A stretch of DNA of 32,575 nucleotides, taken from positions 1-32,575 of IMG/VR virus record IMGVR_UViG_3300023223_000177; one strand, 5' to 3'. Under the pieces are notes generated by a model. That model did not search any database. It was not told the origin of the DNA and saw only the letters and a program-made list of their open reading frames with translations. Position 1 is the first letter of the stretch. Every line of letters starts with the position of its first letter. The translations under genes were made by a program, and so were the position numbers. Of the stretch, positions 1-28,698 are shown one piece after another. This DNA is from a virus.

Positions 1-512
1 AGGCTGTTAAGGACTTTATTCGTAAGTCCGCGAAGGCTGAGGCTCAAGGTGAGTATCTACAGGAACAAAGACGTATACAACATGAGCAGGTGATTGCGGA
101 ACGTACTAAGATCCGCACTACTCAGGAAGTGGAGTATATGGCTAACAACCCGATGTATAAGGCAGCCTCTAATGAGGTTGAGTCTTATGTTAACGGTTTA
201 ACAGATGTTGGTTATGATGTATTTGAGGCGTTTTCGTCTCAGTTATATGATGGCAATGTTCCAGCGGTTATTGATTACTTTGGTGCTAATGATGGTGAAA
301 ACCTAACTGAATTAGGAGAGATTGCACGTATGTCTGCACCTAGAGCGGCGGTTGAAGTCTACAAGATACAGCAAAAGCTTTTAGCGACTCCTAAAGCAAA
401 CAAACCCAAGAGCCAGACAACGCCTGTAAAGGTGGAGAAAGGTTCAACCAAGGGCATTAAGCCCCCATCCAAAAGAGATGGGAAAGGTGTTCTTGAATGG
501 GTTCACTCATAA
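1..512 (+). CDS. Scaffolding-type protein, 3' part (start lies before the window)
   Basis: The frame beginning at base 3 is open from the window edge to TAA at 510-512, giving at least 169 residues; the GTG at 90 is internal, not a start. The visible part is mostly charged and helical (many E, Q, K), followed by a Lys/Pro/Thr-rich linker and a short basic tail (KPPSKRDGKG). It ends 11 bases before the coat gene, which is where P22-like phages keep the scaffolding gene (gp8), and a basic C-terminus suits the coat-binding end of such proteins. Role by position: a temporary core for procapsid assembly. I see no specific scaffold motif, so the call rests on location and composition. Confidence 0.6.
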   Translation, partial: AVKDFIRKSAKAEAQGEYLQEQRRIQHEQVIAERTKIRTTQEVEYMANNPMYKAASNEVESYVNGLTDVGYDVFEAFSSQLYDGNVPAVIDYFGANDGENLTELGEIARMSAPRAAVEVYKIQQKLLATPKANKPKSQTTPVKVEKGSTKGIKPPSKRDGKGVLEWVHS

Positions 513-523
513 TGGAGTAAATT

Positions 524-1756
524 ATGGCTAATGTATTTAATAATGTCAAAGACGCCCCGGGGATTATCGCTAGGGCGGCTGCACAAACACTCAAAGATAA
601 CATGGTGTTTTGTAGCACAATCGATCAAGCAGATGCTTCTGACTTCGATGGTAAGAATGGATATAAGGCGGGTGATACGATTCAAACATCTATCCCAGCG
701 CGTTATGTCCCACAAAATACTTTCGATATCACATCATCTATTCAGGACTCAGTAGAAGAGAAGGCTCCTCTAACGTTGGATATTATTTCCACTGTTGGCA
801 TGGAGATCGACTCATTCGAGTATGCAACAGAAGTTGATTTGAAGAACACTATCAAGCGTTTCGTCATTCCGGCAGCTGAGAGCATTGCTCAAGATGTTGA
901 GTCTCGTATCCTTGAAAAAGCAACTGACGCTACTTACAACTCAGTTGGTACTGCTGGATCAAACACCTACACAATCGCTGACTCACTTGCTGGCATGACT
1001 AAGCTGGATGAAAACCTCGCTCCTCGGGGTGATCGTAACTTCCTTCTTAATAGTGCAGCACTGGCTCAAGGTGTAAATGCTCGTAGTGCATTGTTCCAAA
1101 GTTCTGAGCAGATTGCTGACCAGTACAAAAAGGGACGCATGGGTGTAGCTGATGGCTTTGAGTGGTACTCAAACGAACTCGTTACAACACACACTAATGG
1201 TAACGATGTTACTGGTGTGACGACTGACGGTACTATCGTTGAAGGTGCTTCAACTTTGCATGTTGACGGTCTAACGACTACAACAGGTACGGTTACGAAG
1301 GGTCAAATCTTTACGATTGCGGGAATCTTTATGGTTCACCCAATTACGAAGGTTCCTAGCGCGGTTCTACAACAATTTGTTGTGACAGCTGATGTAACTG
1401 CGGATGGTGCAGGTGACGCAGATCTAGAAGTAAGTCCTTCGTTCTTCGCGGGTTCAGGCGGTTTGCAGAACATTACCTCTCTTCCCGGTGATGGCCTTCT
1501 GTTGACGTTCGTTGGCGGAGCTGACTCGGCTCTTAAACAACCTCTTCAATACCATAAGAGTGCGTTTAAGATGGTTTCAGTGCCTCTCATTCAACCACAA
1601 GCGGTTGAGGTGGCAGCACAAGAAACAGTTGATGGCATTACGGTATCGGTTGTTCGTGCCTTTGATGTTCTTCAACGCCGCATGATTACTCGCCTTGATT
1701 TCCTTGGCGGTGTATCAGCAGTACGTCCAGAGTGGGCAGTGCGTAACACTAACTAA
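524..1756 (+). CDS. Major capsid protein, P22 gp5 coat family
   Basis: A 410-residue protein close in length to P22 coat (430). The N-terminus (ANVFNNVKDAPGIIARAAAQ) and the following stretch with KAGDTIQTSIPARYVP are typical of the P22 coat-protein family, a HK97-fold shell subunit with an inserted domain. Residues about 225-330 are Thr/Gly/Val-rich and would contain the extra domain. A good ribosome site (GGAG) precedes the ATG. It sits between the scaffold-type gene and the gp4/gp10-like genes, the usual P22-like head order. The gene is followed by a GC-rich hairpin rather than directly by another gene, which fits separate control of a highly expressed protein. Confidence 0.9.
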   Translation: MANVFNNVKDAPGIIARAAAQTLKDNMVFCSTIDQADASDFDGKNGYKAGDTIQTSIPARYVPQNTFDITSSIQDSVEEKAPLTLDIISTVGMEIDSFEYATEVDLKNTIKRFVIPAAESIAQDVESRILEKATDATYNSVGTAGSNTYTIADSLAGMTKLDENLAPRGDRNFLLNSAALAQGVNARSALFQSSEQIADQYKKGRMGVADGFEWYSNELVTTHTNGNDVTGVTTDGTIVEGASTLHVDGLTTTTGTVTKGQIFTIAGIFMVHPITKVPSAVLQQFVVTADVTADGAGDADLEVSPSFFAGSGGLQNITSLPGDGLLLTFVGGADSALKQPLQYHKSAFKMVSVPLIQPQAVEVAAQETVDGITVSVVRAFDVLQRRMITRLDFLGGVSAVRPEWAVRNTN

Positions 1757-20418: not shown

Positions 20419-20429
20419 CGTCTTCTCCC

Positions 20430-20591
20430 TTAATATTTCATTTCATTCCTCAAGGCCAATATATACAGCCACAAAAGCACAAATGAACAAAATGCGCCCC
20501 TGTACTCTCCGCCTGTAATCGTTGCCAAAAAAACTATTCCCATTAAAATGGTGCCGAACCAAAGCAGGCACTTCCAAAACAAAAACTTCAT
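20430..20591 (-). CDS. Small membrane protein (53 aa)
   Basis: Too short for standard ORF cut-offs. Starts MKFLFWKCLLWFGTILMGIV and has two hydrophobic segments (about 2-24 and 34-47) linked by TGGEYRG; it ends RNEMKY. GGGGAG stands seven bases before the ATG, and the TAA lies 11 bases before the next start, whose ribosome site follows at once. A second open frame starting seven bases upstream has no room for its ribosome site and is less likely. Confidence 0.55.
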   Translation of the reverse strand: MKFLFWKCLLWFGTILMGIVFLATITGGEYRGAFCSFVLLWLYILALRNEMKY

Positions 20592-20612
20592 TATTCATCT
20601 CCCCAAATCATA

Positions 20613-20729
20613 CTAACCCCCAGTCATTCCGCTACAGGTATTCACACTTATAATGAACAGCCATACAGAACACCACCATATCCTGCTCGATATACCCTCT
20701 AATGCCTCAATTTTGCGACGTTCCATCAT
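20613..20729 (-). CDS. Tiny single-span membrane protein (38 aa)
   Basis: Starts MMERRKIEALEGISSRIWWC and continues into one hydrophobic span (IWWCSVWLFIISVNTCS) before a short polar end. Its ATG overlaps the TGA of the upstream gene (ATGA), the standard junction in this operon. Basic N-terminus followed by a span suggests N-in topology. Function unknown. Confidence 0.5.
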   Translation of the reverse strand: MMERRKIEALEGISSRIWWCSVWLFIISVNTCSGMTGG

Positions 20730-22490: not shown

Positions 22491-22565
22491 TGGCTCAGGA
22501 TGTAGGGATCGAACCTACGACACAGAGCTTAACAGGCTCCTGCTCTACCACTGAGCTAATCCCGA
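22491..22565 (-). tRNA. trnN: tRNA-Asn (anticodon GTT)
   Basis: All arms fold on the minus strand: acceptor TCGGGAT with ATCCTGA (one G-U), D-stem GCTC/GAGC around AGTGGTA, anticodon stem GGAGC/GCTCT with loop CTGTTAA, variable loop GTGTC, and T-arm GTAGG/CCTAC around TTCGATC. The discriminator is G and CCA is encoded. It lies between two protein genes of the same operon. Processing would therefore be needed to free it from the mRNA, unless it has its own promoter, which I did not find. Confidence 0.95.
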
Positions 22566-24500: not shown

Positions 24501-24528
24501 TTGACACAAATCTATTTAGGTATATTAT
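24501..24528 (+). promoter_or_regulatory. Rightward early promoter
   Basis: TTGACA at 24501-24506, 16-base spacer and TATTAT at 24523-24528, about 30 bases before the HTH gene. The two divergent -35 boxes are 24 bases apart, and the AT-rich bases between them (TTTGATATTTATTTAC) are a natural operator location. Confidence 0.65.
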
Positions 24529-24557: not shown

Positions 24558-24791
24558 ATGACTATAGAAACTTGGAAAGAGCAGCAAAAGAAATGGAAAA
24601 TCTTTCTTATTAATGCGGATATTTCACAAAAGGATTTTGCCGAGAGATTCGGATTTAGCGAGTCTCAATTAAGCCAGTGGTTCAACGGTAAACAAAAGGC
24701 GTCAGCAAACAATGAGGGTGAGATGCACCGCGCATTTTATGAGGTTGACAACATTAAACTGAATGTAAAAGCATTGGAGACAGAAACATGA
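24558..24791 (+). CDS. Cro/XRE-type HTH regulator (77 aa)
   Basis: Residues about 22-50 (DISQKDFAERFGFSESQLSQ followed by WFNGKQKAS) form a clear helix-turn-helix of the XRE/Cro type. There is no room for a peptidase or dimerisation domain as in CI, so it resembles Cro or a small phage repressor. It lies directly downstream of the rightward promoter and next to the leftward one, so control of both is the obvious role. A good ribosome site (AAAGGACGGGATA region) precedes the ATG. Its stop overlaps the next start (ATGA). Confidence 0.8.
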   Translation: MTIETWKEQQKKWKIFLINADISQKDFAERFGFSESQLSQWFNGKQKASANNEGEMHRAFYEVDNIKLNVKALETET

Positions 24792-25042
24792 GTCCAGCAC
24801 AGATTAAAATATTACTGCATTACCACGTTTCACCAGATGAATATAATAGCCAAAGTGGCAATAAATTTATTAAAGGTGAGATTAATAAATTTATAGATTG
24901 CGGGCTAATGGCAGAAACCACAGATGGTTATGAACGGGATTACACCCTAACCGAAAAAGGGCATTTTTACGTGACCGATGGACTATGTGCCGTACCTCTA
25001 CCTGTGCAAATATTTAAAATCCCAGTTGAAAACGACCTATAG
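24788..25042 (+). CDS. Winged-helix-like phage protein (84 aa)
   Basis: The pattern MSPAQIKILLHYHVSPDEYN, then EINKFIDCGLMAETTDGYER, LTEKGHFYVTDGLCAVPLPV is one I recognise from many phage genomes, where it is annotated as hypothetical. Helix-helix-strand-turn-strand order with YTLTEKG suggests a winged helix, so DNA or protein binding is likely. It is co-transcribed with the Cro-like gene and translationally coupled to it. Confidence 0.7.
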   Translation: MSPAQIKILLHYHVSPDEYNSQSGNKFIKGEINKFIDCGLMAETTDGYERDYTLTEKGHFYVTDGLCAVPLPVQIFKIPVENDL

Positions 25043-25051
25043 GAGCCAACA

Positions 25052-25384
25052 ATGACAACACCTAATGATATAACAAAGATCGACTTCGCAGAGCTGGATA
25101 AGATGTACGCCAAGCAATTAACCAGAGAGCGTGAGCTTGAGCTTGAGAGCCTTGATAATATCGAGGAGTATAAGGGTAAGTGGAGGAATTTACATTTTAG
25201 GAAAGACGGCTCCTCAGTGTTGGATATGGACGATAGTTTTGATACGGAGGGGGCTGCTAAGGCGGATGTAGATATTTTCATCCCCGATTTTAAGCCGCCC
25301 GAGGAAATTTATTTCCTTTATACATCGGAGCGTATTCCGCATCGCGACTACTCACACACTATACAAATACCTTACACTGACTAA
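25052..25384 (+). CDS. Unknown acidic protein (110 aa)
   Basis: GGAGCCAAC precedes the ATG. The N-terminus is a charged helix (FAELDKMYAKQLTRERELEL), the middle is DGSSVLDMDDSFDTEG, and the end is aromatic-rich (PPEEIYFLYTSERIPHRDYS). No family is recognised. It is the last gene before the 656-base non-coding stretch and the terminator-like stem, so it closes the short rightward transcript. Confidence 0.65.
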   Translation: MTTPNDITKIDFAELDKMYAKQLTRERELELESLDNIEEYKGKWRNLHFRKDGSSVLDMDDSFDTEGAAKADVDIFIPDFKPPEEIYFLYTSERIPHRDYSHTIQIPYTD

Positions 25385-25429
25385 CCCCCTATACCTAAGT
25401 TAAAGGTGTTTACAGGTTGGTAGTGGGTG

Positions 25430-25510
25430 AAAGAGGGGTAGCACATGGGCTAGTGTCTGCGTGTCTTCCATGTCATAAATTACTAGCGAGATAAACTACT
25501 ACCCTTTTTT
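25430..25510 (+). terminator. Terminator-like stem with internal crossing helices
   Basis: A 12-bp stem can form between AAAGAGGGGTAG (25430-25441) and CTACCCTTTTTT (25499-25510), with the U-tract paired to the A-rich arm. GGTAGT at 25419-25424 can compete for the same 3' arm. Inside the loop, ACATGG/CCATGT (25443-25448 with 25468-25473) and GCTAGT/ACTAGC (25449-25454 with 25482-25487) cross each other. It would end the transcript of the Cro-like operon; the competing pairings suggest a regulated version. Confidence 0.5.
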
Positions 25511-25564
25511 ACACGCCAACTAAGTCAGTATGTAGGCCTATATAATATAACTTTATTTAGGGGG

Positions 25565-25593
25565 TTGCAAGCATATAAGGGATGATGTAGAGT
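25565..25593 (+). promoter_or_regulatory. Possible promoter ahead of the kissing-loop RNA
   Basis: TTGCAA (25565-25570), 17 bases, TAGAGT (25588-25593). Both boxes match four of six consensus bases. A start near 25600 would place the first kissing hairpin at the very 5' end of the RNA. A TATAAT at 25541-25546 has no matching -35. Confidence 0.3.
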
Positions 25594-25605
25594 TTAATAA
25601 CTAAA

Positions 25606-25681
25606 GCAGTTGCGGGACTGTGAAGAGACCTTTGAAGTAGACTTTGTGCCCGCACATAGAGTTTACCTCAGGGGTTTTTTT
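25606..25681 (+). ncRNA. Candidate structured RNA with a kissing-loop pair
   Basis: Hairpin 1 (25606-25621) is GCAGT-TGCGGG-ACTGT. Hairpin 2 (25637-25666) has a 12-bp stem, GTAGACTTTGTG with CATAGAGTTTAC, around the loop CCCGCA. The two six-base loops are perfectly complementary. Three of the stem-2 pairs and one in stem 1 are G-U in the plus-strand RNA, so the fold is better on this strand than on the other. A T7 run follows at 25675-25681, eight bases after the stem. It could be a stand-alone RNA of about 80 bases or part of a larger one. No known family is recognised. Confidence 0.5.
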
Positions 25682-25958
25682 ATGCCTCGATTCTATAGGT
25701 AACTTAGTAAAAGCCTTAACTGATTTGCTCCCGCTGCTAGACGCGGTATACAAGCTCTAGATACCTCGGGGGCACTTTGCTTGCAAAAGATTTCCGACCC
25801 GCTCAAATGCTTGATATAGGCTATGAGCACTAACACAGCGTTTTCGTACGATACTATGATAGTTCTTACAACTGAATTAAATGTAAGTCGGGGGTGAAGG
25901 GCAACACTAAAAAATAGCTAGCTGTGCTATACGAGGATAATATATATCTCCCTAGGTG

Positions 25959-25994
25959 CCGTTGTGATGTACGTGAGTATATCGGGGATAACGG
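25959..25994 (+). promoter_or_regulatory. GUGA-capped hairpin upstream of the leader ORF
   Basis: TGATGTAC and GTATATCG form eight pairs (two G-U) around a GTGA tetraloop, a GNRA loop. An outer CCGTT/AACGG stem (25959-25963 with 25990-25994) continues it past an asymmetric internal loop. It ends three bases before AAAGG, the ribosome site of a ten-codon ORF, and 46 bases before the cupin gene. Confidence 0.5.
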
Positions 25995-26004
25995 AAAAGG
26001 AACT

Positions 26005-26037
26005 ATGACTGAATTAAACATAACTAAAAGGAGATAG
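26005..26037 (+). CDS. Ten-codon leader ORF (MTELNITKRR)
   Basis: ATG preceded by AAAAGGAACT and ended by TAG, with that TAG lying just after the AGGAG ribosome site of the cupin gene at 26041. Ribosomes finishing here would be delivered onto the next start, so it may act as a translational lead-in. It begins ATGACTGA, like several other starts in this operon. It may not be made as a functional peptide. Confidence 0.35.
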   Translation: MTELNITKRR

Positions 26038-26040
26038 ATT

Positions 26041-26454
26041 ATGAAGATACTTTCATACGGTAAAGACGGAGGACAGGACTCAACAGTGTGGGGGTTTTGG
26101 TTAATTGAGATAAAGCCTTTATTTTCTGTGGCGTTTTTATGCTTTGAGAAAGGGTCAAGAGAAGTTTTGCATTCACATGCTTTTAATGCTTATACATGGT
26201 TTATTAGGGGGGAGGTGGAAGAACAACATTTAGATGGTCGTGTTATCACATGGAAACCAAGATGGAAACCCAAACTAACCCCTAGAGACACATTTCATAA
26301 GGTGTTTGCAACAAAAAGAACATTTGCCTTTACTGTCCGAGGTCGTTGGAAAAAGGAATGGGAAGAATATTCAACGCAAAAATCAGAATTTACAACATTA
26401 ACCAATGGGCGTAAAATTGTCGGGGTGCGCACAAAAAAGGAGGTGGGGCTATGA
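26041..26454 (+). CDS. Cupin-fold phage protein (137 aa)
   Basis: The HSH motif EVLHSHAFNAYTWFIRGEVE (H44, H46) and the later histidine in RDTFHKVFA (H86) match the metal-binding pattern of small phage cupins. A GxxxxEQHLDG turn separates the strands. Residues 98-120 (TVRGRWKKEWEEYSTQ) extend the barrel. Cupins of this size in phage genomes have no established activity; possible roles include a small-molecule-modifying enzyme or a binding protein. It has an excellent ribosome site (AAAAGGAGATAGATT) and is the first full gene after the structured non-coding block. Its stop overlaps the nucleotidyltransferase start. Confidence 0.7.
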   Translation: MKILSYGKDGGQDSTVWGFWLIEIKPLFSVAFLCFEKGSREVLHSHAFNAYTWFIRGEVEEQHLDGRVITWKPRWKPKLTPRDTFHKVFATKRTFAFTVRGRWKKEWEEYSTQKSEFTTLTNGRKIVGVRTKKEVGL

Positions 26455-26819: not shown

Positions 26820-26970
26820 ACTACACGAAGGCGACCAAAGACTAGAAACCCTACTGCAAACACTTAAGAATGAGATTTATGAAAGGGGAGAAGGCATACC
26901 AGTACCCGCAATAATTGGGGTGATAGAATTATTAAAACTAGAGATCGTTAAGGAGTCAAACGATGAATGA
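26806..26970 (+). CDS. Small helical protein (54 aa)
   Basis: Starts MMANKLHEGDQRLETLLQTL (second ATG at 26809 also possible) and ends VIELLKLEIVKESNDE. Two amphipathic helices joined by a GEGIPVPAI turn. AGAGG precedes the ATG. It overlaps the nucleotidyltransferase by 14 bases and the next gene by eight (ATGAATGA). No family is recognised. Confidence 0.55.
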   Translation: MMANKLHEGDQRLETLLQTLKNEIYERGEGIPVPAIIGVIELLKLEIVKESNDE

Positions 26971-27244
26971 CCGCATAGAAAACGCTGAGGGGTATTACTC
27001 CCTACCCAGAATAGTAGAACCATATGAAGGAGAGGTAATAAAGCTAGATGCTAAATCACTAAACCTACTCTATCAAACATACTCAAATAACGGCGACCCT
27101 CATCAGTTTGTTGAGAAGCTAGAGCAGTATGACGAATGGTTCCAAGACAAACCCCATAAGGTATACGCTGATGGCAAATGGCTAAACCACATAATCAAGT
27201 GGATGATTAGAGACAAACAACAACATGAGGAGAGAGAGCAGTGA
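26963..27244 (+). CDS. Unknown protein (93 aa)
   Basis: Aromatic- and acid-rich (YYSLPRIVEPYEGEVIKLDA; FVEKLEQYDEWFQDKPHKVY), ending in a basic helix (HIIKWMIRDKQQHEEREQ). AAGGAGTCAAACG precedes the ATG. It overlaps the 54-aa gene by eight bases and the next by GTGA. No family is recognised. Confidence 0.6.
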   Translation: MNDRIENAEGYYSLPRIVEPYEGEVIKLDAKSLNLLYQTYSNNGDPHQFVEKLEQYDEWFQDKPHKVYADGKWLNHIIKWMIRDKQQHEEREQ

Positions 27245-27825: not shown

Positions 27826-28698
27826 ATGTCTACAAAATTAAAGAGAAATTTAACGAGTGAGGTTTACACTGAGCTTGTTACGGTAACACCAGAAGTAGCC
27901 ACGTCTTGGTTATCGTTTAATAAACACAACAGAACACTGAGAAAAAAGACTATTGATCTTTACAGCCAATATATGAAAAACGGTGAATGGCTTTTAAATG
28001 GGGAGTCTATCAAGTTCTCAAGCGAAAACTTCCTACTCGACGGACAGCATAGGTTATCTGCTATAGTTAAATCCGGTGCTGCTGTTGAGATGATAGTTAT
28101 GCATAATCTATCGCCAGATACATTTAAGACTATCGACACAGGCAAGAAGAGATCGGGCGGTGATTCATTGTCTGTTGCTGGATATACTAATTCATCTAGA
28201 CTATCGGCTGGAATTGCTTGTTTTATAAGATACAACAGAAAACAACTATTTAATAATGTCCGGCACCATGAGCAAGCAATATCTAATTCACAGATACTTG
28301 AGTTTGCGCAGGCCAACCCTGACATTATAGATGATATGTATGAGGTTATAGCCAATGTTAAGCTATTTAAGGTTGCCCCACCGTCCGTTGTAATTGGGTT
28401 GTATCCATTGATAAAAAGTGCAGATGCGGAGAAGGCTGAAGCGTTTGTTAATATTTTAGCTAACGGTTATGATGATAGGTTTGTCGGGAATAGCGCGGCC
28501 ATAGCGTTGAGAAACAAGCTAACATCAGTTCGTTTCGCTGACAGAAAACCCAGACAGGGTGAGTACGCTAACTATTTTGTCGTTTCGTGGAACTCATTTT
28601 ACAGAGAAATTGTTACAACGGTAGCCAAGAAATCTGGTAAGACGGATTCTCTGACAATACTGGGTGCTAAAAACATTTGGGATGGGTCGAATGAATGA
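27826..28698 (+). CDS. DGQHR / ParB-like domain protein (290 aa)
   Basis: The start at 27826 has GGAGAGAG seven bases upstream; an ATG at 27772 overlapping the RusA stop would add 18 residues and has a poorer site. The N-terminal half contains KKTIDLYSQYMKNGEWLLNG and FLLDGQHRLSAIVKSG. DGQHR is the signature of the ParB/sulfiredoxin-like superfamily that includes DndB-type proteins of DNA phosphorothioation. The rest is helical with a conserved-looking TIDTGKKRSGGDSLS segment. Similar phage proteins are widespread but lack known function; a DNA-linked role is inferred. No dnd genes accompany it. Confidence 0.7.
   Translation: MSTKLKRNLTSEVYTELVTVTPEVATSWLSFNKHNRTLRKKTIDLYSQYMKNGEWLLNGESIKFSSENFLLDGQHRLSAIVKSGAAVEMIVMHNLSPDTFKTIDTGKKRSGGDSLSVAGYTNSSRLSAGIACFIRYNRKQLFNNVRHHEQAISNSQILEFAQANPDIIDDMYEVIANVKLFKVAPPSVVIGLYPLIKSADAEKAEAFVNILANGYDDRFVGNSAAIALRNKLTSVRFADRKPRQGEYANYFVVSWNSFYREIVTTVAKKSGKTDSLTILGAKNIWDGSNE

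Follow-up and report, generated by a model that had tools for sequence, protein, structure and literature searches.

To our knowledge, only a handful of RNA classes of the size considered here have been found in phages, and for two of them, GOLLD and ROOL, the question of function is still without an answer. ColE1 RNA II is a structured sense transcript of some 550 nt. In GOLLD, a conserved 3' region is joined by a 5' region of lower conservation and by a segment that can expand, and the ROOL RNA env-120 is 659 nt long (PMC12286853). In the temperate-type phage HK022, putRNA is a structured RNA in the early transcript, near a terminator (PMC9378689). Here we describe a locus with points of likeness to each of these systems. 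It lies in a 32,575-base IMG/VR virus record, an incomplete record of a P22-coat-type phage, the whole of which was analysed and is called the window below. From the sequences compared, we conclude that the locus probably represents a hitherto undescribed and very rare family of large, structured RNAs in phages, with a GOLLD-like organisation and belonging to neither GOLLD nor ROOL.

A gene-free block in the rightward early operon

The proteins of the window include the coat protein (PF11651/phrog_283), a head closure protein (phrog_578) and an Erf-like annealing protein (phrog_1097). Its rightward early operon runs from a Cro-like HTH gene through two small genes and a block of 656 bases (25385-26040) to a cupin gene; the gene upstream of the block ends at 25384 and the one downstream starts at 26041. 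The initial annotation had reported the block to be free of ORFs of 60 or more codons, and this holds on both strands. The longest ORFs that overlap it (50, 47 and 51 aa) lie exclusively on the minus strand. Such a gap is unusual, because ORF-free gaps of at least 600 nt occur twice in about 0.7 Mb of coat-protein-sharing records, the window's own counted. Alternative genetic codes opened no long frame in the block, with reassignment of one stop giving at most 348 nt. A second, smaller gap of the window (20419-20725, 307 nt) likewise lacks ORFs of 60 or more codons and holds a 53-codon minus-strand ORF.

The cupin gene (26041-26454) is annotated as cysteine dioxygenase (phrog_4786), which is unusual for a small P22-like phage. 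Its nearest kin in phages (43-48% identity) come from genomes of 97-200 kb, and the annotated large-phage relatives have no gap beside the gene.

Homologous loci and their conservation

Homologous loci in related phages had been named in the initial annotation as one way to check the block. Pieces of the block were translated, and the peptides served solely as a means of searching IMG/VR for several degenerate DNA patterns simultaneously. Among 2.9 million IMG/VR contigs, two homologous loci were found, both in other uncultured phages: L138 (contig 3300023223_000374, 26.5 kb) and L137 (contig 3300023284_001030, 8.0 kb). Both were confirmed by blastn (E = 4e-102 and E = 8e-79, respectively) and were recovered again by other patterns. 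An exact-pattern scan returned seven loci, the two known homologues and five chance matches. The covariance model R1 matched the three loci only in 0.98 Mb; its E-values are rough, and it was built from the same three sequences that it finds. With blastn, the block had no match in 50,697 phage records or 72,556 plasmid records, and two scans of bacterial and archaeal genome contigs gave no family member. Across viral contigs, phages, plasmids and prokaryote genome contigs, no member beyond the three was found. IMG/VR scans with the neighbouring proteins (encoded at 26041-26454, 25052-25384 and 27829-28698) returned nothing, and in the coat-protein relatives of the window the early regions are unrelated and the block is absent. 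The family thus looks very rare in scans that need near-exact short matches; TTTCCGACCCGCTCAAATGCTTGATATAGG or R1 can serve as search probes for further homologues. This rarity in public collections suggests that more such families are unseen, because searches start from proteins.

The three loci share one operon position, after a Cro-like HTH gene in the early rightward operon, in phages that differ and are mosaic. Parts of the early module are all that these phages share: the structural genes of the window are unmatched in G026 and G027, G026 has its own terminase and portal, and the genes immediately downstream of the RNA are unrelated among the three. The alignment of the three loci has indels of 1-3 nt, not in threes, and stops in every frame, so that no open reading frame is preserved; because of these frame-breaking indels and scattered stops in the homologues, the block is not coding.

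The 220 bases at 25791-26010 are 97% identical to L138 and 90% identical to L137 by blastn. The homologue of the gene at 24788-25042 has 48% amino-acid identity in L138, and that of the gene at 26963-27244 has 66% in L138 and 51% in L137. This contrast between 90-97% nucleotide identity and 48-66% amino-acid identity in linked genes argues that the 3' domain is under constraint. A single recent exchange could explain the likeness of the window to L138. The comparison nevertheless favours sequence constraint on the 3' domain, because L137 shows the same contrast together with compensatory change. That 0.4-1.1 kb is spent on an RNA kept at 90-97% identity amid diverging genes points to a substantial benefit to the phages.

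Anatomy of the RNA

The features of the locus are collected in Table 1. The conserved core measures about 446 nt in the window; in L138 it is about 716 nt long and in L137 about 590 nt. From its 5' end it consists of P1, then P2, which closes a small domain ending at the invariant 21-mer, the variable arm, the 3' domain and the invariant tail. Upstream of the core, L138 has about 140 nt inserted between CTATACCTAAGTTAAAG and GTGTTTACA and at least 300 nt more of ORF-poor sequence. In L137 the counterpart of 25385-25564 is absent, with a minus-strand ORF instead.

Table 1. Coordinates of the gene-free block, the elements of the RNA and nearby promoter-like sites in the window.
Feature	Position	Strand	Remarks
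Best promoter-like site upstream of the RNA's operon	24501-24528	+	TTGACA-16-TATTAT; consensus match only
Gene-free block	25385-26040	+	No ORF of 60 aa or more; no Rfam family
Weakly conserved 5' region	25385-25564	+	CTATACCTAAGTTAAAG and GTGTTTACA common to L138
Leftward promoter-like site	25542-25570	-	TTGCAA-17-TATTAT; consensus match only
Conserved core	25565-26010	+	blastn and MAFFT alignments; L138 2505-3220, L137 2636-3225
P1	25620-25683	+	28-bp hairpin, one internal mismatch, 6-nt loop, U7 in 3' arm; terminator-like
P2 5' arm (UGCCUC), putative	25683-25688	+	Partner 25769-25774; invariant complement in 3/3, no covariation, picked post hoc
Invariant 21-mer TAGATACCTCGGGGGCACTTT	25758-25778	+	100% identical in L137 and L138; carries P2 3' arm
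Variable-arm site	25775-25789	+	Approximate arm length: window 15 nt, L137 145 nt, L138 270 nt
P4	25790-25895	+	AUUUCCGA (25790-25797) with UCGGGGGU (25888-25895); closes sub-domain holding P5 and P6
3' domain	25791-26010	+	blastn; R1 model
P5 hairpin	25801-25828	+	GCUCA/UGAGC; one compatible G-C to G-U change, L138
P6 hairpin	25865-25887	+	CUUACA/UGUAAG; compensatory A-U to G-C in L137
P9	25959-25994	+	14-bp stem, GUGA tetraloop, GGGG bulge; kept in 3/3, one compatible A-U to G-U change
Invariant tail GGAAAAGGAACUAUG	25993-26007	+	Shine-Dalgarno-like plus AUG; the three sequences diverge beyond

The stretch around TAGATACCTCGGGGGCACTTT is otherwise variable, and the core of the 21-mer has no further exact copy in IMG/VR. 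The variable arm expands by self-complementary sequence, with long stems in L138. At the 3' end, the tail GGAAAAGGAACUAUG looks like a ribosome-binding site and start codon; the ORFs that would start there have 10, 4 and 2 codons. An 11-nt repeat, ACTGAATTAAA, occurs at 25871 and 26008. Its first copy is the loop of P6; L138 and L137 lack the second, and the repeat was set aside.

In L137 a tmRNA- or tRNA-like piece adjoins the RNA on the minus strand (2221-2289, the same as L147 2521-2589). Its acceptor-like and T-arm halves are only 22 nt apart, where 324 would be expected, and it scores 16.8 bits with Rfam RF00023, under the cut-off of 47. The piece could be an attachment site at a host tmRNA gene or a small tRNA-like RNA.

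Folding, strand preference and compensatory changes

Against dinucleotide shuffles, the whole block gave z -2.4 on the + strand, where 1 of 100 shuffles did as well, and z -0.6 on the minus strand, where 29 of 100 did. Among 25 other 656-base tiles of the window, one was clearly lower in folding energy than the block. The lowest tile tested was window 1-656, mostly the reading frame before the coat gene (z -3.6, 20 shuffles). Most of the block's signal comes from the hairpin at 25620-25683, whose local z is about -5, and single-sequence folding alone is suggestive, not conclusive.

P1, with a pair probability of 0.98, is maintained by compensatory change and is most stable on the + strand. Three of its pairs are changed on both sides, and 98.5% of the cells of the main helix are paired. 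Against mononucleotide shuffles, its z scores in the three phages were -5.2, -6.2 and -6.2 on the + strand and -0.7, -2.8 and -3.5 on the minus strand. Elsewhere in the RNA, P6 has one double change, from A-U to G-C in L137, and the single changes in P4, P5, P7 and P9 are pairing-compatible, with one broken cell in P7. P4 pairs in all three sequences with two columns varying compatibly; this helix was picked post hoc, and P2, P3 and P4 came from a scan for helices that all three could form, so that their counts and the G-U tally are biased towards pairing. When the partners were slid along one another, pairing of the whole structure fell from 95% to 28-54%. The energy of the 3' domain was no better than that of shuffles (z -0.8 to +0.6) and most of its pairs never vary among the three sequences; because of this its fold is largely unproven, and it can be regarded as established only in part.

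Two structural elements named in the initial annotation are present and conserved, a GNRA-capped stem at 25959-25994, with a GUGA loop, and a terminator-like stem. The initial annotation had proposed a test for covariation; among the three sequences, compensatory changes are seen in P1 and P6. Two other candidate pairings were rejected. A long-range complement of 9 bases (25565-25573/25778-25786) is lost in the homologues and probably arose by chance, and a pseudoknot at 25737-25765 (GGUAU/AUACC) is sterically doubtful and not conserved.

Relation to GOLLD and ROOL

It had been proposed that the block is a large structured phage RNA, a member or relative of GOLLD or ROOL or else a new class. 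The homologues, the compensatory changes and the strand-specific folding bear out the structured RNA, possibly of a new class; membership of GOLLD or ROOL is not supported. Rfam 15, searched with the block at gathering score and up to E = 10, gave only sub-threshold eukaryotic or unrelated noise, and no family matched 25385-26040. Up to E = 10, the GOLLD model RF02032 had no match in the three phages (G000, G026, G027), and neither did the ROOL model RF03087, which also gave nothing in the control genomes. The 3' domain resembles ribosomal RNA over short stretches, presumably no more than by chance.

The supporting argument from a phage tRNA gene proved weak. The window has a single tRNA-Asn (GTT) gene, at 22491-22565 on the minus strand, opposite to the RNA, between early leftward genes and 2.8 kb from the block; a tRNA scan of the stretches from the other two phages (L146, L147) found none. 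The tRNA islands that are the setting of GOLLD and ROOL are not seen at these loci. GOLLD is further characterised by a homo-oligomeric RNA nanocage.

The likeness to GOLLD is one of organisation, not of sequence. Both are large phage non-coding RNAs with a fixed 3' region, a variable 5' region and an expandable segment (PMC12286853), the 5' region here being variable or absent. Unlike GOLLD, the RNA described here has no match to RF02032, is shorter in the window, is very rare and lies outside a tRNA island. ROOL is alike in size, in being phage-encoded and structured and in its variable linker, but differs in the RF03087 result, silent in the controls as well, and in its tRNA-island setting. 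An unrelated family with a GOLLD-like layout of fixed 3' domain, expandable arm and replaceable 5' part makes it possible to approach the role of such RNAs from an independent example.

Possible roles

The reading that we prefer, at a probability of roughly 0.45, is that the + strand of the block gives rise to a large structured RNA of a new non-coding family, which is made early, folds on its own and acts in trans. Conservation at one operon position in three phages, non-coding character, a nearly invariant 3' domain and a maintained 5' hairpin are observed. The RNA would be made within the early rightward transcript, from a promoter at about 24501-24528, and would fold autonomously, with P1 and P2 as a 5' module, P4-P6 and P9 in a rigid 3' domain and an expandable arm between the two. 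The 3' domain would bind a conserved host partner, with action in trans during early infection; much as in GOLLD, a peripheral place would fall to the variable arm and the 5' end. Because of the Shine-Dalgarno/AUG-like tail, the translation machinery is one possible partner. This case is drawn from three sequences and a predicted transcript whose promoter and 3' end are putative. Against it, the constraint on the 3' domain may possibly come from DNA or protein recognition, and the constant early-operon location also suits a role in cis. Since the RNA is directly followed by unrelated genes in the three phages, cis control of a specific gene is disfavoured. A trans-acting RNA, an operon-level cis element or an RNA-primed origin remain.

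It is conceivable, if somewhat doubtful, that the RNA acts on its own transcript or on RNA polymerase and so controls read-through from the HTH gene into the remaining rightward early operon, by put- or nut-like antitermination or as an attenuator with P1 as intrinsic terminator. In each of the three phages it sits between the Cro-like HTH gene and the remaining genes of the operon. P1 resembles a terminator and has a conserved run of U6-U7, and a Shine-Dalgarno-like sequence plus AUG closes the conserved region. HK022 putRNA offers a precedent, being an RNA of the early transcript that acts on polymerase, and is alike in being structured and near a terminator, with a compatible position (PMC9378689). 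Here, however, the hairpin that resembles a terminator precedes the most conserved domain, the genes that follow the RNA are unrelated among the three phages, and a terminator scanner found no terminator-like site. Put elements are also far smaller than this RNA.

An RNA-primed replication origin is unlikely. On this reading a structured + strand preprimer would stay hybridised at 25.9-26.0 kb for host DNA polymerase to extend, and a minus-strand promoter near 25570 would give a counter-transcript, in the manner of ColE1 RNA II and RNA I. Of the larger early proteins searched in the three phages (window 19.6-32.5 kb; early regions of G026 and G027), none was recognised as a replication initiator, helicase, loader, primase or polymerase, and leftward promoter-like sites lie at equivalent places in all three (TTGCAA-16-TATACT in L138 and TTGCTT-17-TATAAT in L137, by consensus match only); because of these two observations the origin gains weight. 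G027 appears to be complete from the HTH gene as far as the small terminase subunit, and a fast-changing 5' part, a fixed 3' part and several runs of G4-G5 would fit. On the other side, small or uncharacterised proteins may include an initiator and the window record is incomplete, the promoter matches are weak, the region of the would-be counter-transcript is taken by a minus-strand ORF in L137, and G runs and AT-rich bits are common. The likeness to ColE1 lies in a structured sense transcript, a candidate counter-transcript promoter and the lack of a recognised initiator protein. The differences are the location in a phage operon, an origin role that is only putative and the result of blastn, which found no similarity to ColE1-type plasmids in 72,556 plasmid records. 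That a new large phage RNA class provides the replication primer and copy-number control of phages without a recognised replication protein, from an origin unrelated in sequence to that of ColE1, is a little less probable again.

A conserved DNA element, such as a regulatory or recombination site, would account for a 3' domain whose sequence conservation far exceeds its predicted stability. This is very unlikely as a replacement for the RNA, since the base-pair changes fit a + strand RNA (free use of G-U, the strand preference of P1, the double changes) and 220 nt is long for a protein-binding site. A decayed gene, a recoded gene or neutral filler, which would suit the window taken alone with its lack of long ORFs, is already refuted by the homologues, given 97% and 90% identity across 220 nt in phages with strongly differing genes, frame-breaking indels and a frame of at most 348 nt on one-stop reassignment.

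Another phage of the same coat family has an ORF-free stretch of 837 nt with strong hairpins (L126:10202-11038, the same as L073:3134-3970). It matched neither Rfam nor the RNA described here and is possibly a different large RNA.
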